A model generated the notes under the pieces. That model saw nothing but the letters and a program-made list of their open reading frames with translations, searched no databases and was not told the DNA's origin. DNA of 64,000 nucleotides, from assembly GCA_002163155.1 (NCBI GenBank), contig MAAO01000006.1:1240001-1304000 (forward strand), read 5' to 3'. Each line of letters opens with the position of its first letter. Positions within the stretch are counted from its first letter, which is position 1. The translations under genes and the position numbers were made by a program. Source of the DNA: Halobacteriovorax marinus. GTDB lineage: Bacteria > Bdellovibrionota > Bacteriovoracia > Bacteriovoracales > Bacteriovoracaceae. Positions 22,346-39,739 of this stretch are shown in pieces.

Positions 22346-23074
22346 ATGGACCGACATTTAAATTTAATTAAGACAGATTTTGAGCAAACAGAGAAGAGAA
22401 TCTTCCCAAGATTTCCCTTCAGTTACTTAACGTTTAAAAATTCCGGAAAGTCCGTTGATCAACATGTTTTTGAAATTAAAGATATTTCCTATACTGGTAT
22501 GCAGCTTTGTTTAAAGGACGGAGGACATGAGTTCACTCCTGGACTTGACATTAATGGCACCGTTCATTGGCAAAAAGCATCACTAGATACTATAGGAAAG
22601 GTTAAATGGGTGAATGGTAGTCGAATTGGCGTGGAGTTTTCTTCCGAAAATGGTTTTGACCAAGAGGTTAAGGACTTTTTATCGATTGAGAATATGGTTT
22701 CAAGCCTAAGACCTATTCATGACTTTTCTCTTGGTTTAGAAGTGCCGGCCAATTTAAAATATTGGTTACGGGCAGATGGACCCTTTGAAGTTTTTGTGTG
22801 GCGTCATAATGACGGGGAACTTTCTCGTTTTCAAATTCTCATGATGGAAAAATACGTCGAATGGGAAGATGGAGTTGGTGTTAAGACAGGAAGAATTCTT
22901 AGTAAGAGAGATCTGGATACACCCTTAATTACCGAAGATGAATTAGTTTTCGCAGTGGACGAAGGAGTTAATGCTGAAAATATTAGCTTATCTCTAGAAA
23001 TCCTAAGAAATATTGGTCCAGAATTTTTGCCTACTGAGGCCAACGAATTTTTGCAAAGAAAACTTCATTCTTAA
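22346..23074 (+). CDS. PilZ-domain protein
   Basis: An N-terminal PilZ domain (residues about 15-115) has the c-di-GMP-binding elements RIFPRFPF (the RxxxR-like part) and DISYTGMQL (the D/NxSxxG motif), ending with RIGVEFSS. The C-terminal 110 residues are an uncharacterised domain with a WLRADGPFEVFVWRHN segment. It is a likely c-di-GMP effector; c-di-GMP signalling controls predation in related bacteria. AAGGAG supports the start and a strong terminator follows. Confidence 0.85.
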   Translation: MDRHLNLIKTDFEQTEKRIFPRFPFSYLTFKNSGKSVDQHVFEIKDISYTGMQLCLKDGGHEFTPGLDINGTVHWQKASLDTIGKVKWVNGSRIGVEFSSENGFDQEVKDFLSIENMVSSLRPIHDFSLGLEVPANLKYWLRADGPFEVFVWRHNDGELSRFQILMMEKYVEWEDGVGVKTGRILSKRDLDTPLITEDELVFAVDEGVNAENISLSLEILRNIGPEFLPTEANEFLQRKLHS

Positions 23075-23084
23075 AAAAAAAATC

Positions 23085-23109
23085 AGGGTCCTTAATAGGA
23101 CCCTTTTTT
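23085..23109 (+). terminator. rho-independent terminator after the PilZ gene
   Basis: AGGGTCC (23085-23091) pairs with GGACCCT (23098-23104) around a six-base loop, followed by six T residues and preceded by an A run. It lies ten bases after the stop. Confidence 0.92.
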
Positions 23110-23178
23110 ATAGCTGATCAAATTTTCAATTAGCAAAAACTAGACAATGCTCAAGTTTTTTTCTACTAATTGAAATCT

Positions 23179-24228
23179 ATGTTAAATAAACTTGAACTCA
23201 ATCGTTATCTTCGTCATCTCAATCTCAAAGAAATTGGAGAGCAGGGACAGTTAAAACTCAAGGCCTCAAAAATTGTGGTTATTGGAGCTGGTGGGCTTGG
23301 TTCGCCGGTACTCTTATATCTAGCTGCCGCTGGAGTTGGACATATTACTATCGTTGATGGTGATGTGGTTGATGAAACAAATCTACAAAGACAAGTTCTC
23401 TTTAATTCCTTAGATATTGATAAGAGCAAGGCCTTGATTGCGAAAGATAAAATACTTAAACTTAATCCTTATATTAATGTTCAAGTATTCAGTGAACATT
23501 TAAGCAAGAGTAATGCAAAAATAATTGTAGAAGGTTGTGATTATCTCATAGACTGCAGTGATAATTTTCAAACGAGATTTCTCTGTAATGACTTAGCTTT
23601 CTTTTTTAAACTCAAACTTGTTCATGGTTCTGTCTCGGAGTTCACTGGCATGGTGGCCATGTTTAAACCTGGTTTTGAGTCTTGTTATCGATGTCTCTTT
23701 CCGGCGCCTCCAACTATTGAAGTTCAAAATTGTTCTGAAGCAGGAGTTCTGGGTGTGACTCCGGGGATTGTTGGGTTGTGGCAGGCGCTAGAGACGATTA
23801 AATCCATACTAAATATAGGTAGTGAACTTGTCTCTCAGTCTCTTCAAATTGACCTACTAAATTCCAGTGTTAAGAAAATAAAAATTCCAAGAAATGATCA
23901 TTGTCCACTCTGTGGAAAGACTCCCAGTATTAAAGAATTGTATGAAGAAAGTCCCATCATTTGTGCCACTAAATTTCTTGTTGCAACTATAGCAACGTCT
24001 ACCATTGTGGTAGATATAAGAGAGAAGGAAGAAGTTTTAAAGAACGACTTAGGACTTATTTCAATTCCATTAAGTAAAATTAAAGAGAGTCCAGATTTAA
24101 TTGATCCTAAGAAAAGTTATACCTTTGTCTGTGTCAGCGGACAGAGAAGTTTAAAACTTTGCTCTTATCTAAGTGATTTGGGTTATGTAAATATTTATAG
24201 CTTAAAAAATGGTATGGCCTCTTTGTGA
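23179..24228 (+). CDS. ThiF/MoeB-type adenylyltransferase fused to a rhodanese-like domain
   Basis: The E1-like domain (residues about 1-245) has the ATP loop VIGAGGLGSP, the DGDVVDETNLQRQ motif and two zinc CxxC pairs (CYRC and CPLC). The C-terminal rhodanese-like domain (about 265-349) has a FVCVSGQRS active-site loop with Cys. Such proteins adenylate the Gly-Gly tail of ThiS or MoaD and pass sulfur to it. Position before thiC and thiS favours a ThiF role. The gene lies upstream of the riboswitch, so it is outside the TPP-controlled transcript. No strong ribosome site is seen before the ATG. Confidence 0.88.
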   Translation: MLNKLELNRYLRHLNLKEIGEQGQLKLKASKIVVIGAGGLGSPVLLYLAAAGVGHITIVDGDVVDETNLQRQVLFNSLDIDKSKALIAKDKILKLNPYINVQVFSEHLSKSNAKIIVEGCDYLIDCSDNFQTRFLCNDLAFFFKLKLVHGSVSEFTGMVAMFKPGFESCYRCLFPAPPTIEVQNCSEAGVLGVTPGIVGLWQALETIKSILNIGSELVSQSLQIDLLNSSVKKIKIPRNDHCPLCGKTPSIKELYEESPIICATKFLVATIATSTIVVDIREKEEVLKNDLGLISIPLSKIKESPDLIDPKKSYTFVCVSGQRSLKLCSYLSDLGYVNIYSLKNGMASL

Positions 24229-24249
24229 AAAACTATAATTTAAATAAAT

Positions 24250-24278
24250 TTGACAGAGTATTTTAAAAATAGGATATT
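24250..24278 (+). promoter_or_regulatory. sigma-70-type promoter of the thiamine operon
   Basis: A perfect -35 TTGACA (24250-24255) and a GATATT -10 (24273-24278) are 17 bases apart. The expected transcript start, near 24284, coincides with the first bases of the TPP aptamer or lies just before them. Confidence 0.65.
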
Positions 24279-24281
24279 TCG

Positions 24282-26311
<2,030 letters not shown>

Positions 26312-26313
26312 TC

Positions 26314-27753
26314 ATGCATCCAAATTTAAATCAGGAGAGAGATTTCTTAATTGTTCTCATTGGTGGCATGGACTCTAGTGGAGGTGCTGGCCTTTCAAGA
26401 GATATTGAATTTCAAAGAAATGATGAAAACCTAAGAGTCCTTCCAACATTTCTAAGCTTCCAAGGTGATGAGCTAAAATTAGTGAATGTGGAGAAGGAGT
26501 ATTTTAAGGCCTGTCTTAGAGATATTCTTGAGCTCTCAAAGATTCGTCCATTACTCATTAAAGTGGGCGCCCTTAGTGAAATTTGGCAAGTTGAAGAACT
26601 TATTTACTTGAAAACTAAAACTACCGGTAGTGTGCTTGTCTACGATCCGGTAATAAGCTCCAGTAGTGGTCATGTCTTCATGCAGCCTGAACTTCTGGAT
26701 TATATAAAAACTCACTTTTTAAAAATCGTTGATCTCTTCACGCCTAACTTAGATGAAGTTCAGAAGTTTTCAAAAATTGAAATTAAAGACCTCATAGACT
26801 TTAAAAGAGCAGCAAATAAAATCTCTACTAAATCCATATTAATTAAAGGTGGACATCATCATTCGCACTTAGATTTCTTTGCAAGTCACGAAACTTCTTT
26901 CTTTATGAAATCTCCCTTTTATAAAAAGAACTTTAGAGGAACCGGTTGTTCTCTAGCGTCTCTGATTATTAGAGGTCTCTCGGAAGGACAATTCCTATGT
27001 GATGCAGTGGTTTGGGCGAAGGGTGTACTTGCTAGTAATTTAAAGCTCTCAAATAACTACTTAGAGCTTAAGACGTTGACCCCTGAACTTCCTAAGCTCT
27101 CTTTTGATGGAGAATTTGAAAGTTATCAATTTCCAAAGCTTGAAGTGAAAGAGACAACTTTCTACGCTATCATTTCGAACTCGCAGGAATTGGAAGAAAT
27201 ACTCTATGCAGGGGTTAAGATTGTTCAACTGCGCATAAAAGATAAGAGCGAAGACTATATAAGAAGTGAAGTGAGAAAGTGTGTGGAGCTTTGTCAAAAG
27301 CGAAATATTCAACTCTATATAAATGACTTTTGGCAAGTCGCCATCAGTGAAAAGGCCCATGGTGTTCATCTTGGCTTTGAAGACCTACAAACTGTGGATC
27401 TTAAAATCATTGAAAAATCAGGACTCCTCTTGGGTGTGAGTAGCCATTCCTATTTAGAGGGAGCTTATGTCTCTGCGCTAAATCCCAGTTACTTAGCACT
27501 CGGTCCAATTTTTAAGACGACTTTGAAATCCATGAACTTTAAACCTCAGGGTAAAATCTCACTACGTACATGGATTGAAATATTTCAATGTCCTGTGGTG
27601 GCTATTGGAGGTATCACTCTTGAAAATAGTGATCCAATTTTAAAAGAGAAACCAGCATATATTTGTGCTGTTCAAGATATAAGCAAGAACTCTAACCCAG
27701 GCTTAAGAGTAAGAAATTGGCTTAAGAAAATAGATCTCTTATGTGTGCCATAG
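26314..27753 (+). CDS. ThiD-ThiE fusion: HMP-phosphate kinase and thiamine phosphate synthase
   Basis: The N-terminal half (about residues 1-245) is a ThiD-type kinase with GGMDSSGGAGLSRD, TPNLDEVQ and a GTGCSLASL anion hole. The C-terminal half (about 280-475) is ThiE with VQLRIKDKS, INDFWQVA, HGVHLGFEDL, ALGPIFKTTLKS and VVAIGGI. The first would make HMP pyrophosphate and the second join it to thiazole phosphate. In ThiE the usual IND-Arg reads IND-Phe here. The start uses GGAGGG inside thiS. The last 13 bases overlap the next gene. Confidence 0.94.
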   Translation: MHPNLNQERDFLIVLIGGMDSSGGAGLSRDIEFQRNDENLRVLPTFLSFQGDELKLVNVEKEYFKACLRDILELSKIRPLLIKVGALSEIWQVEELIYLKTKTTGSVLVYDPVISSSSGHVFMQPELLDYIKTHFLKIVDLFTPNLDEVQKFSKIEIKDLIDFKRAANKISTKSILIKGGHHHSHLDFFASHETSFFMKSPFYKKNFRGTGCSLASLIIRGLSEGQFLCDAVVWAKGVLASNLKLSNNYLELKTLTPELPKLSFDGEFESYQFPKLEVKETTFYAIISNSQELEEILYAGVKIVQLRIKDKSEDYIRSEVRKCVELCQKRNIQLYINDFWQVAISEKAHGVHLGFEDLQTVDLKIIEKSGLLLGVSSHSYLEGAYVSALNPSYLALGPIFKTTLKSMNFKPQGKISLRTWIEIFQCPVVAIGGITLENSDPILKEKPAYICAVQDISKNSNPGLRVRNWLKKIDLLCVP

Positions 27754-28859
27754 TATGGCTCCCTTTCTCTATTAGTGACGGCGAAGATTTTCATATCATA
27801 AAAGAGAAAATGAAGGCGAGAGGAACATCTTCTTTTCATCATCTAGAGAGTTTTGGATCCACTCTCTTACACGCCAGGTTTTCTACCAATGGAATGAGTG
27901 ATCAACTCCAGCCAAAGTCAGTGGGTGAGATGTCTTTTTGTTTCAATGGGCAATTAAATAACTGGCAAGCAGGTGAAGTCGATACTTTAGCAGAAGTTTT
28001 TTGTGAGACAACGCTAGCTAAGATTGAAACTCTGCCTTTTAAGAACATTGGAACCTTCTCCCTCATTGTTAGATTTAAAGATGGAATTTTTGCTATGAGA
28101 GATCCCTTTGGGCGAAGACCTCTCTATCTCTTAGAGAAAGAAGAGCACTCTCTTATTACTAGTGAACCCTTCATGGTAAATCATTTTGGCGAGGGCCGTG
28201 TTTCTGAACTTAGGCCCGGAGAGTGGGTAAAGTTAAGTTCAATGGGTGTGGTCACAAAACGCGGGCGAATAGAAAGTGAAGTAAAAACTTGTTTCTTAGA
28301 GAATGCTTACTTTATGAACAAAGAGACAAGAGTCTTGGGAGTAGAACTCGCTAGTTCAAGAGAGCTTTTAGGAGAATTGCTTGGTCAAAAACTTAGAGGA
28401 ATTTCAGGTGAGGTTGTTCCTATTCCTGACGGGGCCTTTGATTTTGCTAATGGTTTGGCGCAAGTCATAGGTAGAGCAGTCTTACCAATTATTAAGAAAA
28501 ACCAATTTAGAACTTTCATTGAACGCACAAATAGAGCAGAGAAAATAAAAGCGAAGTACGAAGTTGTGGGAAAAGTACCAAGAGAGATTATTCTCGTTGA
28601 TGACTCTCTGGTGAGTGGATCAACCGTTGCGTATCTAACGAAGCTATTAAAACAACATGGAGCAGAGAGAGTGACTATCGCTATAGGAAGTCCCAGAATT
28701 ATCTCTCCTTGTGTTCAAGGAATGGGATTTATTAATCCCAATGATATCTATCACTCAAGTCAAAACGTTCAGAGGAATTGGGACGATGAATTCTTTCTGG
28801 AAGTGAGTGATTATCAAGATGTATTTCAAACTAGGTTTTGCGCGGATTGTATAACCTAG
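27741..28859 (+). CDS. PurF-type amidophosphoribosyltransferase homologue, short form
   Basis: PurF makes phosphoribosylamine from PRPP and glutamine. The start gives Met-Cys, so Cys2 would be the N-terminal nucleophile after Met removal. Glutaminase landmarks are HARFSTNG, FNGQLNN and MRDPFGRRPLYL. The phosphoribosyltransferase half has PIPDGAFDFANGLA, FIERTNRAEKI and the PRPP loop ILVDDSLVSGST, where PurF usually reads DDSIVRGTT. At 372 aa it is about 100 residues shorter than typical PurF. It overlaps thiDE by 13 bases in the riboswitch operon, so feeding AIR to ThiC is the likely job. It could also be the main purF. Confidence 0.85.
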   Translation: MCAIVWLPFSISDGEDFHIIKEKMKARGTSSFHHLESFGSTLLHARFSTNGMSDQLQPKSVGEMSFCFNGQLNNWQAGEVDTLAEVFCETTLAKIETLPFKNIGTFSLIVRFKDGIFAMRDPFGRRPLYLLEKEEHSLITSEPFMVNHFGEGRVSELRPGEWVKLSSMGVVTKRGRIESEVKTCFLENAYFMNKETRVLGVELASSRELLGELLGQKLRGISGEVVPIPDGAFDFANGLAQVIGRAVLPIIKKNQFRTFIERTNRAEKIKAKYEVVGKVPREIILVDDSLVSGSTVAYLTKLLKQHGAERVTIAIGSPRIISPCVQGMGFINPNDIYHSSQNVQRNWDDEFFLEVSDYQDVFQTRFCADCIT

Positions 28860-28865
28860 AGAATA

Positions 28866-30041
28866 TTACATAACATTGTTTTGAATTTTTGGAAGCGTGA
28901 CAATAAACTTTGTGTGTTCTGAATGTTCATCGAGTTTAAGAGAGCCATTGTGCTCTTTTAAAATTCTTAAACAAATACTCAAACCTAGACCACATCCTCC
29001 CTTTCCTTTCTTAGTATAGGAAGTGTCAAAGATTCTGTCTCTTGCATCCTGAGGGATTAGTGGACCACTATTTGTGACAAAAATTTTGACCGTCTCTTCA
29101 TCAGTTGTTGCGGAAATATCAATCCATTGTTCATCTAAATCTTCAGTGGCGGTTATAGCATTGTTTAGAAGATTTATAATGACTTGGCCTAGTTGTACGG
29201 ATCTTGCTTGTACTGTTAAGTCATTTGCAATGTTTTCAGTGGTCATTTTTAATGTTGAATGAGTTTTAATTTTATATTCACCAATTTCAACAGCGTTTTT
29301 AACAATTTCTAAAATACTATTTTCTATGAACGGCTCATTCTCTGATTCACCTATAAAAGCTTCCATTCCTTTTATGATTTTAAAAATTCTATTGATGTAA
29401 CTTAGTGCAACTTCTGAGTGTTCAAAAATAGGATCTAATGAGGGATCACTTTTAACAGAGAGATTATTTATTTTTTCTAATAAAACTTGCGCCACAATGA
29501 GTGGAGCTTTAATTTCATGAGTCACTCCAGCGGTCATTTGGCCTATGTTTGAAAAATTACTAGAAGAGACAAGATCTGTGCTTAAATTAGATATTTGATT
29601 ATTGAGTTTTAAAATATCTACTGCATTTGTTTTAAGTGAAATATGAAAAGCGCTTCTCTCTATTCTGGTAGTACAAACTTCTTCCGCCCTCGCCACTGAA
29701 AAAAGTAGGTCTTCTGCTTCAAAGGGTTTTTCTATGAAGTCAAAGGCATTGGCCTTAATCGCCTGAATCGCTGAGGATTTTCTTCCATAACCTGTTATGA
29801 AGATGAGAGGGATATAGGAGTAACAACTTTGTAATTTCTTAGCTAAGGTGATTCCATCAATTTCGGGCATTTCAATATCAGTTATAATCACATGGATTTC
29901 ATTTTCATCCAAGGCCTGTAGGGCGACTAGGGCAGAGTTTGCCACGATGACATTGTAACTCGAACCGAGTATTTTTTTGACTAAAATGAGAATATCTTCG
30001 TCATCATCCACAACTAAAATGGAAACCATTTCTTTGTTCAT
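28866..30041 (-). CDS. receiver-histidine kinase fusion protein
   Basis: The domain order is reversed relative to common hybrid kinases: receiver first (residues 6-125; D55 phospho-acceptor, T83, K105), then a linker helix, then a HisKA-like helix with H175 in VTHEIKAPL, then an ATPase domain with N-box INLLNNAITATED and G-box GGCGLGLSI. It has no membrane segment, so it is a soluble relay that could be set by an upstream kinase and in turn phosphorylate a receiver. Three stand-alone receivers lie in this window. It is convergent with the PurF homologue, seven bases apart. Confidence 0.92.
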   Translation of the reverse strand: MNKEMVSILVVDDDEDILILVKKILGSSYNVIVANSALVALQALDENEIHVIITDIEMPEIDGITLAKKLQSCYSYIPLIFITGYGRKSSAIQAIKANAFDFIEKPFEAEDLLFSVARAEEVCTTRIERSAFHISLKTNAVDILKLNNQISNLSTDLVSSSNFSNIGQMTAGVTHEIKAPLIVAQVLLEKINNLSVKSDPSLDPIFEHSEVALSYINRIFKIIKGMEAFIGESENEPFIENSILEIVKNAVEIGEYKIKTHSTLKMTTENIANDLTVQARSVQLGQVIINLLNNAITATEDLDEQWIDISATTDEETVKIFVTNSGPLIPQDARDRIFDTSYTKKGKGGCGLGLSICLRILKEHNGSLKLDEHSEHTKFIVTLPKIQNNVM

Positions 30042-30131
30042 TATTACATCCAGTAAACAAGATATCTCTATATTTCTTAGAAATTGTAATTCTAAAGTAT
30101 GGGGGAAGTGACAAGATTTGAAAATTATTTA

Positions 30132-30157
30132 GCGGTTGAAGGTGATTTTTCAACCGC
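30132..30157 (-). terminator. hairpin terminator after the 150-aa secreted protein gene
   Basis: GCGGTTGAA (30132-30140) pairs perfectly with TTCAACCGC (30149-30157) around an eight-base loop. Read on the minus strand, it lies 13 bases after the stop and is followed by an A/T-rich tail ending in TTTT. Confidence 0.7.
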
Positions 30158-30170
30158 AAGAGTAACTAAA

Positions 30171-30623
30171 TTAGTTAACTAAACTCATTGTACAATCAGT
30201 AGAGATTGTTCCTCCCCAATGATCTTCAACCCAACTTAAGATAAAGTGTGCTGTGAAATTCTTCTTACCTTCTAAGAGAGCACTGTGTGGAATAATTAAG
30301 TCGGCCATTCCAAAGAAAGCGGGGGCAAAATTTGCGAATTTCGCATGTCCTTTATAAGACCTTGGTCTATAAGTTGAGTAGTTGTGAACTTCCTCAAGTA
30401 AAAAATCTTGGTCGGTCCAAGCATCTTCTATAGAGAACTTGAAGAAACCATTATCTATCGTATAGTCGTTCTCACCATTAACTGCAATGATAGTTTCAAG
30501 TTCAATTTTGGCGCTTCCTAGGTCAGTGTAAGCGTCTAAATCAGAACATTTAAGTAGATAGGTACTTGTCGCAAGAGTTGAAAAACTAAGCGTAAAAATA
30601 AGTAGTGTAAATAATGATTTCAT
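30171..30623 (-). CDS. secreted protein of unknown function (150 aa)
   Basis: Not recognised. A signal peptide (MKSLFTLLIFTLSFSTLA) precedes a mature domain with two cysteines, near its start (LKCSDL) and end (STDCTM), a layout shared in outline with the other small exported proteins at 31373, 36537 and 37015. AAGGAG six bases before the ATG fixes the start, and its own terminator follows. Confidence 0.7.
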   Translation of the reverse strand: MKSLFTLLIFTLSFSTLATSTYLLKCSDLDAYTDLGSAKIELETIIAVNGENDYTIDNGFFKFSIEDAWTDQDFLLEEVHNYSTYRPRSYKGHAKFANFAPAFFGMADLIIPHSALLEGKKNFTAHFILSWVEDHWGGTISTDCTMSLVN

Positions 30624-30889
30624 TGAAAGCTCCTTGAGTTTGAATTGATTTTTTTTAGCGTGTGTGAGCTCATAGGTAAAATAGATTAAAGACCTAGTCT
30701 CTATCTTAAAATTGGATACTGTTGAGGTCTTCTAGATTACTTAATATTTCTAAGAACTTAGAGTATTTAGATTAAAAGGAACTTGTTTTCGAGGAGTTAT
30801 AAGACAGTTTCGTATTCTATTGAATTTTAATTCATATTCTCTTCTTATACTGAACGTGAATAGTAGAAACTTTTAAAAGGGAATTTATT

Positions 30890-31282
30890 ATGAGAATACA
30901 CACTTTAATTGTCGATGATGAAGTTGATGTGGAGACTCTTTTTCGTTTAAGTTTCAAGAAATGGGTTAAGGCCAACTTAGTCAAAATCTCTTTCGCTACT
31001 AGTGGAATAGATGCACTTGGTATTTTGCGAATGGATAGTAATGAAGATATTATTCTCATTTTAACAGATATTAATATGCCCGAGATGGATGGGATTGAAT
31101 TATTAAAAATTGTAAGAGGTGAATTTCCTGATATTGATGTCTTTATGATTAGTGCCTACAACGATGAGAATCATATTAATGAAGCCACGGACTTAGGAAT
31201 TAAGGGTTATTTCACTAAACCCATTGAGTTTGATAAATTGAAACATGAAATTAGTATTCTCTATCCAATGCTCGCTAGTTAG
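30890..31282 (+). CDS. stand-alone response regulator receiver protein
   Basis: A single receiver domain fills the 130 residues: D9, D10 and E11 in the pocket, D60 in ILTDINMPEMDG as phospho-acceptor, S88 as switch residue and K110 in FTKPIEF. It has no output domain. The receiver-kinase gene about 850 bases away is a possible partner, although it is on the opposite strand and separated by a secreted-protein gene. Confidence 0.9.
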   Translation: MRIHTLIVDDEVDVETLFRLSFKKWVKANLVKISFATSGIDALGILRMDSNEDIILILTDINMPEMDGIELLKIVRGEFPDIDVFMISAYNDENHINEATDLGIKGYFTKPIEFDKLKHEISILYPMLAS

Positions 31283-31372
31283 AAAAGTTCTAACATTTAC
31301 CTGCATTCCTTTTAAATTCTTCTAAGAAGGTCTAGACTAAAGAATCTCATAATTCTTTCGTTTGGAGCTTCA

Positions 31373-31708
31373 ATGAAGAAAATCTCACTACTTTTCGCTT
31401 TCGTCATCTGTTCATCTACTATGGCCACTGACCTGATTTGTAAGATCAATTTAAACACAACAAATGTATTCACGACAAAAGTCTCTGTGGAAGCGGGAGA
31501 GAAGGTTACTATTGCCGCTGGAGAACAGTATAGCTTCTTTCTTAAAAACTTAGTGGGGGATGATTATGAATTGGAAGTCTTGAATGTACAGGCCCCTTCT
31601 AGATCATATGCTTTAGCTAGTTTAAGTACTAGTTCTGATAAATTGCAATATTCGCTTTGGAGCCGTGATATTTTACTTGAGGCGAGTTGTCGCATAGTTA
31701 CCAAATAG
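31373..31708 (+). CDS. small secreted protein of unknown function (111 aa)
   Basis: Not recognised. The signal peptide is MKKISLLFAFVICSSTMA. The mature domain of about 93 residues starts TDLICKI and ends EASCRIV, so its two cysteines near the ends could form one disulfide around a beta-rich fold. GGAG lies five bases before the ATG. A shared terminator follows. Confidence 0.7.
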   Translation: MKKISLLFAFVICSSTMATDLICKINLNTTNVFTTKVSVEAGEKVTIAAGEQYSFFLKNLVGDDYELEVLNVQAPSRSYALASLSTSSDKLQYSLWSRDILLEASCRIVTK

Positions 31709-31717
31709 TCGATAAAA

Positions 31718-31741
31718 AAGGGAGATATTAATATCTCCCTT
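31718..31741. terminator. bidirectional terminator
   Basis: The 24 bases form a perfect palindrome (AAGGGAGATATT and its complement). On the plus strand it follows the stop at 31708 by nine bases; on the minus strand it follows the transglutaminase stop at 31765 and is followed by TTTTTTATC. Confidence 0.8.
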
Positions 31742-31764
31742 CATTTGCTTACTTATTTAACTTC

Positions 31765-33345
31765 TTAAAATCTACCAATGATTCCTAGTTGGTTTAAAAG
31801 GGTAGAGATAGTTTTAAATTTCACTTTCTCTGTGAATGTTAACTTTACCTTCGCTTTTCTTCCATTTAAGGTCACATCTTCTTCTTCAATTTTCACTGAG
31901 TAGCCTTCTTGAGTTAGGGCATTTGTTATCATATAAGCGATGTACTTCTTCTTTAAAGAATCGTTACCGTTCCCTAGGGGCTTGAGTTGTTTGAAGGCCC
32001 TTAGGTAATTCTTTAGCTTATAGACTCTTGAACGTTGCTCGTACCTTAGTTCACTAGAATCTGTACTTGTACTTGTTTGAGACACTTTATTGTCAAAAAT
32101 ATAGCGTACATACTTATCTTGAACTAGCGGATTTCTATTGCCAGCGTTTCCTGAAATTTTAGTTGGTAACCAAATGAAATCAGGATGAGTGTTATCCATA
32201 TTTTCAATTCTCTTTCTACCAGCTTCAGTTTGATGATACCAAAGCCCTTCTCCAACAATTCTACCTGCAGAGACTACTTTCTTGCCATCTTCAGACATAA
32301 CCATTGGAGCATCAAAGAACATCATGAATTCAACAAGTCTACCTGAGTAGTGCTTCCCAAATTTCTCTTCTTCTAAGATTCCTCTATAAGTAGTGCGAAT
32401 TTCATCATCTGTAGTTTCAATATTAAACTTGTCAGAAATCTCTCCTTCAGCAACACCATCTTCGGCCCAAAACATTTTCATTCTCATTAGAACTGGGTAA
32501 CGTTTTTGACCATCACTTGAAACTTCTACATCTTTAATATCATCAGTCTTTATAGGAAGAATTCTATAACCTACAATAGGTTGGTTCCAAACTTGATCAC
32601 CAGTAAAACGATCGATGACCACACCTGTTTGTTGTACTCCTACGTAGTTTGTAAAAATAAGAAAGAAAGTACGAGGGGAGACGTCCCAAAAGGCGTCATA
32701 AGCTGTATCTCCACTTCTAGTGAGTGCTTGACCTTCACTATCTGTCTTATCAAATACCCACTTCTTTGTTCCGTCTAAGTAGTTATTTTTTAAATTATTT
32801 GTCGTCACTCCTTTATGAGTATTTCCCGCAAAGAGAGATCCTGAAGACATCCACAACTCAGTGATCAGCCCTTTTTGATCGGCCACTGTCATTTCAAATT
32901 CAACACCTTTTGGATTCTTAGCGGTGAAGCTCTTTCTTGGTTCTTCTTCTTTTATCGCCGCTGCTGACCAGGCATTACAATGACCCCACCAACCTTCGCA
33001 ACTCTTCTTAGTTTCTGGATCATCTTCAAACTTGGAACACGAGTGCGACTTCAATTCAAAGTAGGTCGTATTTTGTTCTCTTTCAGTGATTCCCCAAAAA
33101 GCATCGTACTTCTTTGCTGGCGGGTTATCTTCTTGACCTTTTATATTCTTATGGGAAAGTCCATCTCTTCCATAGGCCCAGTAGCTTCCGGCCCAAGGAA
33201 TATTCTTCGGACTCGCATATCTATAGTTATTAAATATTTCTTTAAAATCTGTATTTTGAATGGCAAAACTTCCAGTTCCTGCACCTTGCACAGTGAGACT
33301 AAGAGCAATCGCCATGGGAGCAATTAATTTCTTTAAATTATTCAT
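31765..33345 (-). CDS. exported GP42-type transglutaminase-like protein
   Basis: The pattern matches the transglutaminase elicitor family (GP42 of Phytophthora, also reported in marine Vibrio). A cysteine motif WWGHCNAWSAAA (Cys123) is followed by a TVADQKGLITELW helix, then SPRTFFLIFTNYVGV, VIDRFTGDQVWNQP and VGYRI. The N-terminus is a signal peptide (MNNLKKLIAPMAIALSLTVQ). Such enzymes crosslink Gln to Lys in proteins. The third and fourth motif residues differ from the usual CHGW. The start is one of two adjacent ATG codons after AAGGA. A lipoprotein gene lies 36 bases upstream. Confidence 0.75.
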   Translation of the reverse strand: MNNLKKLIAPMAIALSLTVQGAGTGSFAIQNTDFKEIFNNYRYASPKNIPWAGSYWAYGRDGLSHKNIKGQEDNPPAKKYDAFWGITEREQNTTYFELKSHSCSKFEDDPETKKSCEGWWGHCNAWSAAAIKEEEPRKSFTAKNPKGVEFEMTVADQKGLITELWMSSGSLFAGNTHKGVTTNNLKNNYLDGTKKWVFDKTDSEGQALTRSGDTAYDAFWDVSPRTFFLIFTNYVGVQQTGVVIDRFTGDQVWNQPIVGYRILPIKTDDIKDVEVSSDGQKRYPVLMRMKMFWAEDGVAEGEISDKFNIETTDDEIRTTYRGILEEEKFGKHYSGRLVEFMMFFDAPMVMSEDGKKVVSAGRIVGEGLWYHQTEAGRKRIENMDNTHPDFIWLPTKISGNAGNRNPLVQDKYVRYIFDNKVSQTSTSTDSSELRYEQRSRVYKLKNYLRAFKQLKPLGNGNDSLKKKYIAYMITNALTQEGYSVKIEEEDVTLNGRKAKVKLTFTEKVKFKTISTLLNQLGIIGRF

Positions 33346-33381
33346 CATATATTCCTTATAGGTCATTTATTTTAGTTCTTA

Positions 33382-34335
33382 TTACTTAATTCTTTTTACA
33401 ATAGAGAAGAATCTATTCGTGTGAATAGTAGTAGGCCAAGAATGTCCTTTGCACCATCCAACTCTTACTTTGTTACCAAAGATATCTTTATAATTTGTTT
33501 GATATCCAGAGTTACATTTCTTGACTCGCACAAGTTTAGTAATTTTTGATTGAACATATTTTTGATCAGGAATATTTAGAGTCGCGCTACTAGACTTCTT
33601 CCAACTTCTAAGAACTCTCGTCGCTGAAAAGTTTGGAAAATCCACAGGAAATTCTGAAAGCTCTGAAGACATAGATGATCTTTGATCTATTCTATAATCT
33701 ACAGTTCTTGTGTTCTTACTCTCATTCTTGTCATGGTAGTCGACACTCTTTCCAAAAGGTCTAAGTTCATCGTCAAAGTAAAGTCTAAGAGCAATTAGAT
33801 CATCTTTTCTTAGTCTTGATCTCTTAGTGAGGGGACGTTTCTTAACTTCAAGTACGAGACATTTCTTTGTTTTATTAGACTTGTATAGATCAGCACTTCC
33901 AAAGAACTTTTCTGGTCTGTGCTTTGGGCGATTTACAATCATCTTATAACAGCTTTGAAGTTCCACTGCGTGAAATTCATAGGTCACAGGTTTTCCAAAA
34001 CTCTGTAATGAATCTAGGTATTGAGTCTTTTCTGATAAGGTCATTCCCTTAACAGAACTTAAATCAAAAACACTGTCTAAATTTTTATTTTCAATACCTG
34101 TGATTTTTGGAAAAGAAAGTACTTGAAAAGATCTTAACTTTTCAATATTAAAACCTATGGAGGCAAGTTGAGTTCCCGCACTGGCCAATTCTCTTGAGTG
34201 AAACTTATGGTCTTCCTTGAAGGAGTTTTGTAAGGCCTGTTGATAGGCGCTTTCTTCTTTGTAGTTCTTGGTTGTCGAACAACTCGTGGCCGCCACTGCA
34301 AATAGTAATAATAAAAGATTCTTTTTACTCTTCAT
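33382..34335 (-). CDS. lipoprotein of unknown function (317 aa)
   Basis: The signal MKSKKNLLLLLFAVAATSC has a clear lipobox ending at Cys19. The mature domain is basic with several cysteines and is not recognised; it contains a VELQSCYKMIVNRPKHRPEKF segment around residues 122-142. GGAG before the ATG fixes the start. The gene lies 36 bases upstream of the transglutaminase-like gene on the same strand, so the two are probably cotranscribed, and the lipoprotein may anchor, inhibit or serve as substrate for it. Confidence 0.75.
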   Translation of the reverse strand: MKSKKNLLLLLFAVAATSCSTTKNYKEESAYQQALQNSFKEDHKFHSRELASAGTQLASIGFNIEKLRSFQVLSFPKITGIENKNLDSVFDLSSVKGMTLSEKTQYLDSLQSFGKPVTYEFHAVELQSCYKMIVNRPKHRPEKFFGSADLYKSNKTKKCLVLEVKKRPLTKRSRLRKDDLIALRLYFDDELRPFGKSVDYHDKNESKNTRTVDYRIDQRSSMSSELSEFPVDFPNFSATRVLRSWKKSSSATLNIPDQKYVQSKITKLVRVKKCNSGYQTNYKDIFGNKVRVGWCKGHSWPTTIHTNRFFSIVKRIK

Positions 34336-34486
34336 CTACTTCTCCATGAGTGGTTAGAATAACCACCTATTTTAATTTGAATATTTAGGAATATTGTAGA
34401 CGTTTTTTATTTGTTTTGATGCGAGGCAAGATGCTCCGCTATCATCTAATGTATTGATTTTATTATAATTTTTCTGGTTTTAGCGG

Positions 34487-34732
34487 TTATTTTTCTTTCA
34501 ACAACTTGTGGCCACCATCACAGAAAGGGGCCTTGGAAGATTGGCAACAACCACATATAAAAATGGTCTTATCCTCTTCAATAGTGATGAAGTAAGGTTG
34601 TTTTCCTGTGCCCTCACGGGAGTGAGCGCCGTCGCAGAAAGGACCTTTCTTAGAGAGGCCACAAGAGCATAAGACTAATCTGTCTCCCTCTTTAACTTCC
34701 ATCTTAAAAGGTTTATTCTGCCAACCGCTCAT
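34487..34732 (-). CDS. double CDGSH iron-sulfur domain protein
   Basis: Two CDGSH motifs are present in 81 residues: LCSCGLSKKGPFCDGAH and FICGCCQSSKAPFCDGGH. Each supplies three Cys and one His for a 2Fe-2S cluster, as in mitoNEET-type and Miner2-type proteins. It has no membrane anchor. GGGAG six bases upstream supports the start. It follows the DoxX-like gene after 27 bases and is probably in the same operon, pointing to a redox role. Confidence 0.92.
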   Translation of the reverse strand: MSGWQNKPFKMEVKEGDRLVLCSCGLSKKGPFCDGAHSREGTGKQPYFITIEEDKTIFICGCCQSSKAPFCDGGHKLLKEK

Positions 34733-34759
34733 CTTACACTCCCATGTCTGTTATATGTT

Positions 34760-35170
34760 CTAACCTTTCTTCATGGACTCTAACTTTGGGCACCTGAATA
34801 TATTTCTAATAATTTCCTTATACGGGCTGGCAAAGAAAGCTAGGTAGCACTCTAGCAATACGAGAACGATTGCTAGCACCATTCCACCGGGTGCTAAGAA
34901 AATATGGAAGAGAAATATATTTAAGATGATGGGCGCTAGTATAACTAGTGCCATGGGAACAAATGCTCCCGCTAGTAACAATAGGCCTGAGAGAATTTCG
35001 CAAACTTTTAAAAACGGAAAGAAGTAGCCAGAACCTGCGAGACCGCCCATGAATTTTCCCGCTTCTTCTGGCAGAGGAGGCATGGAAATAAAGTTAAAGA
35101 ATCCGTTAAGACCAAATACAAAGAAAATAGTTCCAAGTAGCAGTCGTGCTACAAGTGGTGCATATTTCAT
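34760..35170 (-). CDS. DoxX-like membrane protein
   Basis: Four membrane helices are visible in 136 residues (about 5-27, 48-68, 73-93 and 98-118). The first carries the LLLGTIFFVFGLNGF pattern of DoxX-type proteins, followed by a loop GKFMGGLAGSGYFF and the helix KVCEILSGLLLLAG. The family is linked to thiol and sulfur redox chemistry. AGGAG precedes the ATG. Cotranscription with the CDGSH gene supports a redox context. Confidence 0.82.
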   Translation of the reverse strand: MKYAPLVARLLLGTIFFVFGLNGFFNFISMPPLPEEAGKFMGGLAGSGYFFPFLKVCEILSGLLLLAGAFVPMALVILAPIILNIFLFHIFLAPGGMVLAIVLVLLECYLAFFASPYKEIIRNIFRCPKLESMKKG

Positions 35171-35342
35171 AATGACTCCTAGATTAAAAATTATTTCTCC
35201 TATGATAACTCTTTATTAAAAGGCAATGGTTTTGAAATCTTCACAATTTCCTTCATATTGCATGGAAGTTTTCTAATTAGAAGATTTTACTTACAGACTC
35301 TTAAGAAATATTTATCTCATATTTCTTAGTTATAATTTCCCC

Positions 35343-35537
35343 ATGAATAAGGAAAAGAAATCTAATCTTAAGGACTATGCAGATGTGAGGGAGCGCAGTG
35401 ATTCTACTGTGAATCTCGTACGCACTCTTTGCGCGGAACATGTGAAAATTTATATCTATGATGTAACTAAAGACTCAGAGTGGGAAGATGACTCTTACGC
35501 TGAAGAGTCACAATATCCTCTAGGTGATTTCGAATAA
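35343..35537 (+). CDS. small acidic protein of unknown function (64 aa)
   Basis: Not recognised. It has a basic N-terminus, one cysteine (LCAEH) and a very acidic C-terminal third. No ribosome binding site precedes the ATG; instead TATAAT at 35333-35338 lies only four bases upstream, so a leaderless transcript is conceivable. Its stop is one base from the stop of the convergent lipoprotein gene. Confidence 0.5.
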   Translation: MNKEKKSNLKDYADVRERSDSTVNLVRTLCAEHVKIYIYDVTKDSEWEDDSYAEESQYPLGDFE

Positions 35538-35538
35538 T

Positions 35539-36372
35539 TTATTTAATGTAGTGAATATTCTCTATATGAGAAAGTACTCCTGGGTGATTGATCACTTTCA
35601 CTAGGGGAGCTCCTGTTAAGTTCAAGAGACCACCATTGGAAAAGTAAGTCCAGTTAAGAGCAAATTCAAACTTCTGTTCATAGACTTGTCCACCTGCTTC
35701 AATTTCTAATTCAAACTTGTAAACAGCATCGTTCTTGAGTCTAGATTGATTGGGGATAATCTCTTGGAGTTTAACGCTTAGTCTTTGGCACTTTCCTACA
35801 ACTAAATCTGCACCGTTTGCACAAAGAGAAAATAGATTGAGTAATTCCATACGCATTTTTGCTCTAAAATTCTTTGCCTGTAATAACACATCAATGGGAG
35901 TAATGAGAATGCTGGTGAGTTCTTCAGAGCTGGCCGCTACGCAATCTTTAGCAAGATCTCCTAGACCTGTTCCCGTATAAATAGGATCTGTGGGGACAGT
36001 TGTGACTTCTAAATAGAGAGTGTCGGTATTTACTTGAGCTATGATTTTCTCTGTCACTTCAATATTTTGATAAGAGAATTTACAGATATCACCTTCGTTT
36101 TTCGATAGGAGAAAAGTTACTGTTTTACTCGTTCTTAGAGTGAGGTTGCTTTTAAGCTCTTCACCTAGCATGGGTAGTTTTAAATTTTCAAGTTTCACTT
36201 CTGCATGTAAATTTGTTTTTAGAACTTTAAAATCAGCTGCTGTTAAACCATCAATAAAACCTTTTGGATTAGTGCCACCACTTCCAGTTCTTCGGCCACT
36301 TCCGTCTCCACACGAAAAAAGTAATAGGGAAAGAGAAAGGATAATGATTTTCTTAAGCTGTAAATTATTCAT
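35539..36372 (-). CDS. lipoprotein of unknown function (277 aa)
   Basis: The signal ends in the lipobox LFSC (Cys21), followed by a Gly/Ser/Arg-rich linker (GDGSGRRTGSGGTNP). The mature domain is a beta-rich sequence of about 240 residues with several cysteines and is not recognised. Its lysine-poor linker and Gly-rich tether suggest surface or periplasmic display. It stands alone and is convergent with the small acidic gene. Confidence 0.72.
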   Translation of the reverse strand: MNNLQLKKIIILSLSLLLFSCGDGSGRRTGSGGTNPKGFIDGLTAADFKVLKTNLHAEVKLENLKLPMLGEELKSNLTLRTSKTVTFLLSKNEGDICKFSYQNIEVTEKIIAQVNTDTLYLEVTTVPTDPIYTGTGLGDLAKDCVAASSEELTSILITPIDVLLQAKNFRAKMRMELLNLFSLCANGADLVVGKCQRLSVKLQEIIPNQSRLKNDAVYKFELEIEAGGQVYEQKFEFALNWTYFSNGGLLNLTGAPLVKVINHPGVLSHIENIHYIK

Positions 36373-36473
36373 GATTATAGGGTTCCCTAAAAGGTAAAAT
36401 TCACAAAAAGTTTTGGGTCTTCAAGTCGAAATCTTATCTATGAATAAAGGTTTTCACAAGGCATTTGATCAGA

Positions 36474-36502
36474 TTGACACAACTAAGGGCCAAGCGTATT
36501 TT
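36474..36502 (+). promoter_or_regulatory. sigma-70-type promoter
   Basis: A perfect TTGACA (36474-36479) and a TATTTT -10 (36497-36502) are separated by 17 bases. The promoter lies 34 bases before the ATG of the 107-residue secreted protein. Confidence 0.65.
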
Positions 36503-36536
36503 CCACCCAAATTAACCATTCTTACTGGAGTAAAGT

Positions 36537-36860
36537 ATGAAATCACTTACCGTTTTTCTTTTAGTGTCACTATCCATCTCTTCTAACGCTTCTTTTGTCA
36601 GCTGTTTTGATCAAGTTGAAAAAGATTATTACGAAAATGCGCGTAACGCTCGTTACACACAATTAAAGTCTGATTATGATTTCATTGCTACTGGCGAAGT
36701 TGTTGAATTTGGACGTAATGTAAGTTTTGGTCCTTATGAAGCTGATAAATTAGCTTTTCATGCCACAGGAAGTATCCACAGTGGTTGGTTTCACAAAGTT
36801 GTTATTGTAGACAGAATAACTTGTGAGATTAATGAAATCCAAATGGTAGAATCTGAATAG
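36537..36860 (+). CDS. small secreted protein of unknown function (107 aa)
   Basis: Not recognised. The signal peptide is MKSLTVFLLVSLSISSNA. The mature domain of about 89 residues has two cysteines (VSCFDQ and RITCEI), likely one disulfide. GGAG precedes the ATG, and the gene has its own promoter and terminator, so it is a clean single-gene unit. Confidence 0.72.
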   Translation: MKSLTVFLLVSLSISSNASFVSCFDQVEKDYYENARNARYTQLKSDYDFIATGEVVEFGRNVSFGPYEADKLAFHATGSIHSGWFHKVVIVDRITCEINEIQMVESE

Positions 36861-36867
36861 TAATACT

Positions 36868-36893
36868 AAGGCCACTTGTTGGTGGCCTTTTTT
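36868..36893 (+). terminator. rho-independent terminator
   Basis: AAGGCCAC (36868-36875) pairs with GTGGCCTT (36882-36889) around a six-base loop, followed by a T run to 36893. It follows the stop at 36860 by seven bases. Confidence 0.92.
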
Positions 36894-37014
36894 CACTTAA
36901 GCCATCCTAATTTCTAATAGTTACCCCTTAAATTCAAGAGTAAATGTTACGCAATGCGTTATCCTTCTTCCTAATCTATGCTATAAATCAGCTAATAACA
37001 TTTAAGGAGATTCC

Positions 37015-37533
37015 ATGAAACAATTCGCCATTGTGCTTATCGCACTTCTAAGTCTAAGTTCTAAGGCTTCTGTTGAAATCAACTGTAAGGCCCAGTCCAT
37101 TATGTCAGGCTCAGAACTGACAGTAAATATCACTCCAAAGGGTGATGAATTACTCTTAACTGTAATCGGTGGAGAGACTCCTGTGGCTGAATATATAAAT
37201 GCCATTGTTGAAGAAGATATGAGCAATATTAAAACTCTTCTTGCCTGTGGTGAGTTGGATGAATATGAGCAAGAGATGTGTGCTTATAAGTACGCCACAG
37301 ATAATGGTGTTCTTGAAACGAGAGTTTTCTTAGATGTGCAAATGATGCAAGTTTATGAAAGTGAAGGAATGGGGACTTTCTCCATTGATAAAGAGAAAAT
37401 TGCTAGTGCAGTGAGATATAATATCGGTGAGGCCTCTAAATTTGGTCAGGGCGGAGTGACTGTCTTCTTTGATAAAGAAGGAAGAGTCATTGGAAAGCTT
37501 CTAAACATGTTAGAAGTGATGGATTGTAAATAA
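37015..37533 (+). CDS. secreted protein of unknown function (172 aa)
   Basis: Not recognised. The signal peptide is MKQFAIVLIALLSLSSKA. The mature part is acidic with four cysteines (INCKA, LLACGE, EMCAY and the C-terminal MDCK). AAGGAG six bases before the ATG fixes the start. A small perfect palindrome, ACGCAATGCGT, lies at 36949-36959 in the upstream region. Confidence 0.72.
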   Translation: MKQFAIVLIALLSLSSKASVEINCKAQSIMSGSELTVNITPKGDELLLTVIGGETPVAEYINAIVEEDMSNIKTLLACGELDEYEQEMCAYKYATDNGVLETRVFLDVQMMQVYESEGMGTFSIDKEKIASAVRYNIGEASKFGQGGVTVFFDKEGRVIGKLLNMLEVMDCK

Positions 37534-37614
37534 GTTTCAACTGCTTAGGGGGCAACCTCTAAGCTTATTCAATAAATTTGCTGAAATAGCGAATCTTACC
37601 TTATAATACTCCTA

Positions 37615-38850
37615 GTGAAGAAAATTAAGAAAACAAACTACCAAGAATCTAAGACCTTTTGTATCATTCCGTGGATATCCATGGAGATTCAACACGACGG
37701 AAATATCTTTCCCTGTGGCCGTGGTCAATTCAATACACCCCTTGGAAATAGTAAAATCCAAACACCTGAAGATGTTTGGAATTCCAAAGGCCTTAAGGAA
37801 TTGCGCTTAGGAATGCTTGCGGGAAAGAAATCAGACTACTGTTCTGATTGCTACCGTATTGAGAGCTGCAACGGTGTGAGTCCTAGGAAGCAACATTTAA
37901 AATCTCATCAGAGTGAGCTAGCGCTAGTTGATGAAACTTTTGAGGATGGCTCTCTAGAAGTTTTCTCCCTAAAACATCTTGGTCTGCGCTTTTCTAATAC
38001 TTGTAATATTAAATGTAATTACTGTGATCATAACTTTTCTACTTCTTGGTTTAAGGATCAAAGAGCGTTAGGAATTGATCCCAAGCTCTTAGTTCATCAT
38101 CAACCCTTTGAAACCAAAGATGGTCTCATTGATTTTATCACGCGCAATCTTGCGGGACTTGAAAGTGTTTACATCGCAGGAGGGGAGCCTTTACTAGAGA
38201 AAGCTCACCTAGATTTTCTAGACCTTCTGATTAAAGAAGATAGATGTGATATCCAAATTACCTACAATACTAATCTCACTAAAATAACTTCTTTTGGAGC
38301 TTCTCTGTGTGAGCGCTGGAAGCACTTTGATCAGATTGTAATCGATGCCAGTATTGATTCCCATGGAGAGAGAAACGACTACATTAGATACGGCTCTAAG
38401 TTTAAAGATTTAGAAAATAATCTAAGAGAGCTCTCCAAGTATTCTAATATCCAAACTAGAATCTACTGTACGGTTTCCAAGTTTAATATTCTCACACTAG
38501 GAGAGTCGATTCTCTACTGGTTAGAGAATAAACTCATTAAAGAGAATTGCATTATCTTCAATGTTTTAGAATCTCCTAGAATGTATAATATTCAAACCCT
38601 CTCTAGTTCGCAGAAACTGCAAGTGAGCGAGAACTTTAAGGCCCTATCCAAACATCTCTTTCAGCACTATGAAATGGGGGGCGCCCTACAATTGAGCGCC
38701 AAATTAAAAGAGCTTTTAACCTTTCTGGGTGTGGCCGACTTATCTCACCTAGAAGAAGAGTTCGTTAAAAGGTGTACTACCTTGGATTCACTACGTGGAT
38801 GTGACTGGGTTAGTGTCTTTCCTGAACTAAATTCAATAGCTCTTGATTAA
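37615..38850 (+). CDS. radical SAM protein with N-terminal cysteine cluster domain
   Basis: The radical SAM motif is CNIKCNYC (C130, C134, C137). Before it, residues 14-90 form a SPASM/twitch-like unit: FCIIPW, DGNIFPCG, then CSDCYRIESC, giving cysteines 16, 34, 76, 79 and 85 for an auxiliary cluster. Having this unit N-terminal to the radical core fits the twitch-type arrangement often found in glycan or peptide maturation enzymes. The start is the GTG at 37615; a later ATG would cut off FCIIPW. The substrate is unknown, and no precursor-peptide gene is obvious. Confidence 0.85.
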   Translation: MKKIKKTNYQESKTFCIIPWISMEIQHDGNIFPCGRGQFNTPLGNSKIQTPEDVWNSKGLKELRLGMLAGKKSDYCSDCYRIESCNGVSPRKQHLKSHQSELALVDETFEDGSLEVFSLKHLGLRFSNTCNIKCNYCDHNFSTSWFKDQRALGIDPKLLVHHQPFETKDGLIDFITRNLAGLESVYIAGGEPLLEKAHLDFLDLLIKEDRCDIQITYNTNLTKITSFGASLCERWKHFDQIVIDASIDSHGERNDYIRYGSKFKDLENNLRELSKYSNIQTRIYCTVSKFNILTLGESILYWLENKLIKENCIIFNVLESPRMYNIQTLSSSQKLQVSENFKALSKHLFQHYEMGGALQLSAKLKELLTFLGVADLSHLEEEFVKRCTTLDSLRGCDWVSVFPELNSIALD

Positions 38851-38898
38851 GCGTCAAAAATCTGGGAAAACAGCCTATAATTTAAACCAAGAGTGAAT

Positions 38899-39105
38899 AT
38901 GTCTGATTTAGAAGTAAGAATCGTATCCCTAGAAGAGAAGTTTTCCCATCAAGATGAGCTTGTCTTTGAACTCAATAAAATTGTAGCTAATCAACAAGAA
39001 GTCATAGTGGAGCTTATTAAAGAAGTGAGATCTCTTGGACAGTTGAGCAATCAAGATGGATCTTCCATGTCTGGCCTTAAAGACGACGTTCCTCCGCACT
39101 ACTAA
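38899..39105 (+). CDS. slyX: SlyX-family protein
   Basis: The 68-residue protein is a coiled coil (LEVRIVSLEEKFSHQDELV, then LNKIVANQQEVIVEL) ending in the SlyX hallmark PPHY. SlyX is a small conserved protein of unknown biochemical function. The start is taken at the ATG at 38899 rather than the GTG six bases earlier. It follows the radical SAM gene by 48 bases and may be cotranscribed. Confidence 0.85.
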   Translation: MSDLEVRIVSLEEKFSHQDELVFELNKIVANQQEVIVELIKEVRSLGQLSNQDGSSMSGLKDDVPPHY

Positions 39106-39266
39106 ATTAAAGATTTCATTGGCAGTGCTACAAAGTTGGTGGCACTAAATATTTGCACAGCTCTGCTAATTCACTAATAACTCATCTCTCTATTTTCCCT
39201 TTTTACTCAAATTGATTTCATTTCTCAAATATGTAAACTCATTCTGGGTAGGACATGGAGTTAATT

Positions 39267-39620
39267 ATGAAAATGATTTTCAGCTCAATTCTCTTCGTCT
39301 GTTCATTAACAACTCTAAGCTTTGAATGTTCAAATGTCTTAGAGGCCACTATTAAGAGAAAACTCTCAAGCGAGCAAACTCTTGTGCAGGTTCTCTTTAA
39401 GAAAATTCTTGCCCCGAGTGAGAAGTATCAAGATCACTGGGGCATGAGAAAAGTGGTCATTAACCGCGAAAAATTTCCCGTTTACTATTTTAGATCAGTT
39501 GTTGAGTTACGCTTAAAGTGTGAAAAATCTCAGTGTTCTCCGCAATTTTTTCACAACGCCTACCTTCTATCGCCCAATACCTGTCGAATATTGAAGAAAG
39601 CGCTGCTTTTTGTGCACTAA
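39267..39620 (+). CDS. small secreted protein of unknown function (117 aa)
   Basis: Not recognised. The signal peptide is MKMIFSSILFVCSLTTLSF. The mature domain is basic with several cysteines (FECSN, KCEKSQC, NTCR). The start is set at 39267 because GGAG lies six bases upstream; the longer frame adds four residues without a site. No partner is evident. Confidence 0.65.
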   Translation: MKMIFSSILFVCSLTTLSFECSNVLEATIKRKLSSEQTLVQVLFKKILAPSEKYQDHWGMRKVVINREKFPVYYFRSVVELRLKCEKSQCSPQFFHNAYLLSPNTCRILKKALLFVH

Positions 39621-39656
39621 GTTGTTAAAAGCTGATTTATTTTGATTAGTTAAGCT

Positions 39657-39684
39657 TTGCACTTGGTGTTTTCACTTCTATAAT
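39657..39684 (+). promoter_or_regulatory. sigma-70-type promoter of glpX
   Basis: TTGCAC (39657-39662) and a perfect TATAAT (39679-39684) are 16 bases apart, about 50 bases before the glpX start. Confidence 0.6.
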
Positions 39685-39739
39685 TTCTTATAATATCTAT
39701 CATTTTAACTAATATTAAATATTACAGGAGTGCATGGGC

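Follow-up and report, generated by a model that had tools for sequence, protein, structure and literature searches.

In the 64,000-nucleotide stretch of Halobacteriovorax marinus DNA analysed here (the window; contig MAAO01000006.1, positions 1,240,001 to 1,304,000), a TPP riboswitch precedes four thiamine-operon genes in the order thiC-thiS-thiDE-purF*, where purF* is the name we give to the final gene, the open reading frame at 27741-28859. The features of the locus are the following:

23075..39733, no strand: segment carrying the thi operon and absent from four congeners (synteny comparison of G043-G046)
23170..24228, + strand: thiF-type adenylyltransferase with a rhodanese domain, upstream of the riboswitch (Pfam ThiF 252 bits, Rhodanese 26 bits)
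24250..24278, + strand: sigma-70-like promoter, TTGACA-17-GATATT, just 5′ of the aptamer (consensus scan only, 10/12 matches)
24280..24379, + strand: TPP riboswitch aptamer (RF00059; cmscan 73.8 bits, gathering 54.3)
24450..26117, + strand: thiC, HMP-P synthase, with AIR as substrate (NF006763 962.7 bits, cut-off 650)
26114..26311, + strand: thiS, 65-aa sulfur carrier with a C-terminal Gly-Gly (translation; weak similarity to thiS of relatives' operons)
26314..27753, + strand: thiDE fusion, HMP(-P) kinase and thiamine phosphate synthase (Pfam Phos_pyr_kin 116 bits, TMP-TENI 140 bits)
27741..28859, + strand: purF*, divergent, shortened PurF-type glutamine amidotransferase/phosphoribosyltransferase, 372 aa

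The genes are closely packed, each of the junctions from thiC to purF* being an overlap or gap of at most 13 bases: thiS overlaps thiC by 4 bases, and thiDE, which stops at 27753, shares 13 bases with the start of purF*. The next gene (28866-30041) is convergent. From thiC to the stop of purF*, the + strand has a single terminator-like site, which is weak, lies inside thiS and is at about chance level. The consensus scan returns promoter-like sites in numbers no higher than in shuffles, and the site at 24250-24278 is to be read as a consensus match only. Judged by this layout, purF* is probably transcribed together with thiC-thiS-thiDE. An earlier note on this DNA had recorded the 13-base overlap (27741 against 27753), the Met-Cys start (ATG TGT) and a position at the end of a TPP-controlled thiamine operon, all of which hold, the last by virtue of the 73.8-bit aptamer and the convergent downstream gene. 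Absent from that note were the 65-aa thiS, the four Fe-S cysteines of purF* and the location of its missing length, which we describe below.

The operon with purF* sits in a 16.6 kb segment whose flanks, a PilZ gene (22346-23074) followed by a glpX-type gene (39734-40693), are syntenic in four congeners; two of the four have one or more unrelated genes between these flanks, and all four also lack ThiC. Contamination is unlikely, the surrounding contig being 1.45 Mb long and the synteny around the segment conserved. The same segment encodes a hybrid response regulator-histidine kinase, a protein of the transglutaminase-elicitor family (31765-33366; PF16683, 79 bits) and a radical SAM protein (37615-38850) with a SPASM domain (16-80) N-terminal to its radical SAM domain (126-277), just upstream of which is a 172-aa gene (37015-37533) assigned to no family. 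As for purine synthesis in the congeners, no PurF was found in the near-complete G044, G045 and G046, nor was PurM found in G044, where it was sought, and G043 retains a pur operon; purine auxotrophy is likely in the PurF-less congeners.

The H. marinus genome itself encodes one PurF above the TIGR01134 cut-off (393 bits; C1:1328305-1329708), at the head of purF-E-C-D-N-L-Q-H with purM directly after at C1:1338760, that is, a complete purFECDNLQHM operon 61 kb from purF*. Hence purF* is a true second copy, a paralogue; the idea that it might be the sole purF, which the earlier note had proposed to settle by searching the genome for another, is rejected. The thiamine pathway is likewise complete, with ThiC, ThiDE, ThiS, ThiF, ThiG and ThiH all encoded, thiG and thiH being located on contig C12, where a TPP aptamer of their own precedes them. 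This thiG-thiH operon (L077 6753-8873) stands separate, whereas relatives keep thiG and thiO in the thiC operon.

By family profiles, purF* is PurF-like yet divergent. It matches TIGR01134 (purF) over residues 41-372 with E 4.2e-35 and 122 bits, below the curated cut-off of 350, and so fails equivalog membership; the genome's canonical PurF passes. The Pfam phosphoribosyltransferase domain (Pribosyltran) is found at residues 225-314, above its cut-off, and the glutamine amidotransferase domain at 39-142, slightly below it. The nearest solved structure by sequence is the B. subtilis PurF (1ao0/1gph; 1ao0 E 2.8e-23). On these sequence comparisons, homology to PurF is beyond chance, although we do not class the protein as a PurF equivalog. 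Its overall identity to PurFs is 24-29%, and at 372 residues it is 122 shorter than the canonical copy (494 aa), in agreement with the shortfall of about 100 residues claimed earlier. The reading frame is intact over its 372 codons, with codon usage resembling that of the neighbouring genes. The tree of PurF homologues that the earlier note had called for was built with 46 PurFs, and the terminal branch of purF*, of about 10 changes per column, is too long for its position to be decided.

The catalytic residues are mostly retained. At 80 positions near-invariant in 45 PurFs, the alignment gives 51 kept, 23 changed and 6 gapped. The putative N-terminal nucleophile Cys2 (start MCAIVW) aligns with Cys1 of the E. 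coli PurF, and the glutamine-site residues R26, R73, T76, N101 and G102 of the latter correspond to R27, R46, T49, N69 and G70, all kept. In the same half, E. coli Y74 is replaced by F47, the H of the HNG motif is F68, and D127, which binds the glutamine amino group, aligns with E79 beside a deletion, D81 being the alternative. In the phosphoribosyltransferase half, a supposed loss of the pyrophosphate-binding tyrosine was rejected, with E. coli Y258, to which this role is ascribed (PMC7056826), corresponding to Y190. The flexible loop keeps K326, N327 and R332 as K253, N254 and R257; it reads KNQF instead of KNRY, with Y329 changed to F, and its region is shortened. The PRPP loop is DDSLVSGST as against DDSIVRGTT, so that both Asp, the Ser, the Gly and the last Thr remain (E. 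coli D366-D367-S368 and G372), while the Arg of DDSIVRGT, invariant in all 45 PurFs, is S292. Thus, the PurF motifs in both halves and the altered PRPP loop reported in the earlier note are both upheld. In addition, all four cluster cysteines of the B. subtilis enzyme (C236, C382, C437 and C440) have counterparts (C184, C324, C367 and C370); the aligned E. coli-type PurF has Asn at the second of these positions and is unaligned at the last two. This conservation of ligands makes purF* a candidate [4Fe-4S] protein of the B. subtilis type.

Most of the missing length falls in the glutaminase domain and at the C-terminus: about 33 residues are missing after the RG motif and about 18 after the NG motif, together with a C-terminal tail. 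Owing to a shorter hairpin, the spacing from the Cys to the Asn-Gly is 67 residues, against 69 in the genome's own asparagine synthetase B (AsnB), and the local alignment of the two proteins over this stretch is nearly gap-free (Z 7.6 over shuffles). The ATP-pyrophosphatase synthetase domain that forms the C-terminal part of AsnB-type proteins is absent by Pfam. The compact layout is a known working form of such glutaminase domains and, by analogy, may function in purF*.

A first AlphaFold2 model, from an 8-sequence alignment, was poor (pLDDT 48.6); a second, whose input alignment contained 14 PurFs from phages and bacteria, reached pLDDT 66.5 and is matched best by PurF structures (1ao0, Foldseek E 7.7e-24; 6lbp, Z 29.7), a match that is not independent evidence because the input alignment consisted of PurFs. 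Model quality is poor in the glutaminase (Ntn) half, with pLDDT <50 for the first 9 residues, and because the structural alignment begins only at about PurF residue 28, the placement of the catalytic Cys is left unconfirmed.

Among the genomes searched, the arrangement is confined to this one. No orthologue was found among the 129 genomes of the class or among the top matches in 369 genomes of the phylum, where the other high matches are longer frames like ordinary PurF or are cut by a contig end. ThiC has a match in 20 of 358 phylum genomes, and in none of the 18 other ThiC neighbourhoods (of 19), several of which are cut by contig ends, is there a PurF-like gene near ThiC, such that the purF-thi association does not recur in them. 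The divergent PurFs of two genomes with thi operons (G120 and G121) were rejected as counterparts, for they head ordinary pur operons. A scan of the GTDB collection with six exact 8-residue peptides, which reaches close relatives only, likewise gave no orthologue; its sole match, an Aliidiomarina gene, is a canonical PurF beside accD and folC and was discarded. A viral scan with the purF* protein alone gave no match, and tblastn against plasmids and phages gave only matches of 24-29% identity resembling ordinary PurFs. Two observations stand apart from this question. Two viral contigs (IMG/VR; L100 2515-5033 and L106 2860-5354) carry a full canonical PurF with an apparent glutamine synthetase directly after it, which would produce the nitrogen donor of PurF. 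In four genomes with ThiC (G107, G108, G122 and G299), whose assemblies are 68-93% complete, PurF was not found, which may reflect an assembly gap or another source of phosphoribosylamine (PRA).

We propose, with a probability of roughly 0.58, that purF* encodes a second amidophosphoribosyltransferase-type enzyme that supplies PRA for thiamine synthesis under TPP control. When TPP is low, purF* would be transcribed with thiC-thiS-thiDE behind the riboswitch; its N-terminal Cys would free ammonia from glutamine for addition to PRPP, yielding PRA; the PurD, PurN, PurL/Q and PurM of the ordinary purine operon would convert this to AIR, and AIR would then serve as the substrate of ThiC. In Salmonella, purine and thiamine synthesis share PRA as an intermediate (PMC3485032), and with the other pathway genes present the normal enzymes can take it on to AIR. 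The likely benefit would be that thiamine synthesis still receives AIR when plentiful purine nucleotides switch off the canonical PurF. Catalytic activity with PRA as product is a prediction that the kept catalytic residues support, and purF* may be dedicated to thiamine. Of the earlier proposal of a dedicated thiamine paralogue, the existence of a second purF and the location inside a riboswitch-led thi operon stand; what does not help it is the change of the PRPP-loop Arg to S292, the missing glutaminase segments, the score of 122 against 350 bits and the occurrence in a single genome. Against our reading, besides that Arg, the score and the single genome, stand the replacement of Y74 and Y329 by F, F68, the uncertain D127 equivalent and the weakness of the structure model towards its N-terminus.

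As for regulation by purines, the B. subtilis substitutions S283A and R307Q are among those relieving nucleotide inhibition of PurF, and the E. coli K326Q/P410W is also among those lessening it (PMC4223553). In the alignment, purF* has G231, Q255 and I331 at S283, R307 and P410, and keeps K326. These residues are suggestive of relaxed purine feedback in purF*; since the feedback sites also touch PRPP, the replacements may just as well signify reduced catalysis. The fuller proposal, namely a TPP-controlled, purine-insensitive PRA synthase with a compact, AsnB-like glutaminase domain that uncouples the vitamin B1 precursor from purine feedback, is less likely than not as a whole.

The main rival is that purF* is a degenerate or re-tasked paralogue. 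Its better-surviving form, which we nevertheless consider improbable, has purF* degenerating or already non-catalytic and simply carried at the operon end, with AIR for thiamine coming from the canonical PurF alone. The very long branch in the tree, the loss of some 33 and 18 residues from the glutaminase domain and of an invariant PRPP-loop Arg, and the restriction to one genome would all fit such decay; however, the frame is intact over 372 codons with neighbour-like codon usage, random decay would not favour the joint retention of the Cys, the Arg, the Asn-Gly, the DDS and the four Fe-S cysteines, and the spacing in the shortened glutaminase region is that of asparagine synthetase B, whose compact form works. 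Somewhat less probable still is that purF* works as a glutamine-dependent phosphoribosyltransferase but with its acceptor, regulator or product altered; it might, for instance, donate ammonia or a phosphoribosyl group to some other step of thiamine or nucleotide metabolism. We know of no step in bacterial thiamine synthesis that requires another glutamine amidotransferase or phosphoribosyl transfer, and ThiC, ThiDE, ThiS, ThiF, ThiG and ThiH are already present; moreover, the PRPP and glutamine residues of purF* are mostly kept, even if the substitutions in the PRPP and flexible loops (KNQF for KNRY), the shortening of the flexible-loop region and the score below the curated PurF cut-off could be read as signs of such an alteration. 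Least likely, by a little, is a mere second purine PurF brought next to the thi genes by shuffling in a mobile or variable segment, a view to which the lack of 23075-39733 in four congeners and of purF* in every other phylum thi operon examined lends something, but which has to contend with the complete purine operon and canonical purF already present and with the place of the gene downstream of a TPP aptamer, overlapping thiDE by 13 bases, which would tie its response to thiamine rather than purines.

The route from PRPP to AIR is common to thiamine and purines, and, as far as our searches reached, the one dedicated entry enzyme described is PurF, which is inhibited by purines. If the thiamine-PRA reading is true, the clash between plentiful purines and the need for thiamine would be met directly in the genes, by another entry enzyme that TPP controls, and purF* would offer a small natural PurF variant for the study of feedback and of a minimal glutaminase domain.

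PurF, TPP-controlled operons and the PRA link are each already known. We found no thi-linked PurF in the literature, in a search mostly confined to non-subscription journals, and a PurF-type gene in a TPP-controlled thi operon beside an intact canonical purF is thus new within the literature and genomes searched, as seen in one genome. Among known systems, the TPP-riboswitch thi operons of the class (genera g34, g39 and g45) have the form thiF-thiC-thiO-thiS-thiG-thiDE, with thiF not adjacent in g45; the H. marinus operon shares with them the order thiC...thiS...thiDE, a ThiC 65-73% identical to theirs and, as in g34 and g39, a thiF in front. Unlike these operons, which hold thiO and thiG and nothing PurF-like, it has no thiO, has thiG-thiH elsewhere (C12) and ends in purF*. 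With the glutaminase domain of asparagine synthetase B, a class II amidotransferase, purF* shares a similarly compact first part; it differs in carrying a type I phosphoribosyltransferase (Pribosyltran) as its C-terminal half instead of an ATP-dependent synthetase, and overall it is most similar to PurF. With the B. subtilis-type PurF (1ao0, 1gph; TIGR01134) it has in common the domain order, the Cys after the Met, the Arg, Thr and Asn-Gly of the glutamine site, the DDS of the PRPP loop, the pyrophosphate Tyr and the four [4Fe-4S] cysteines; in contrast to that enzyme, it is about 100 residues shorter, has no propeptide, carries Ser for the PRPP-loop Arg and sits in a thi operon rather than at the head of a pur operon.
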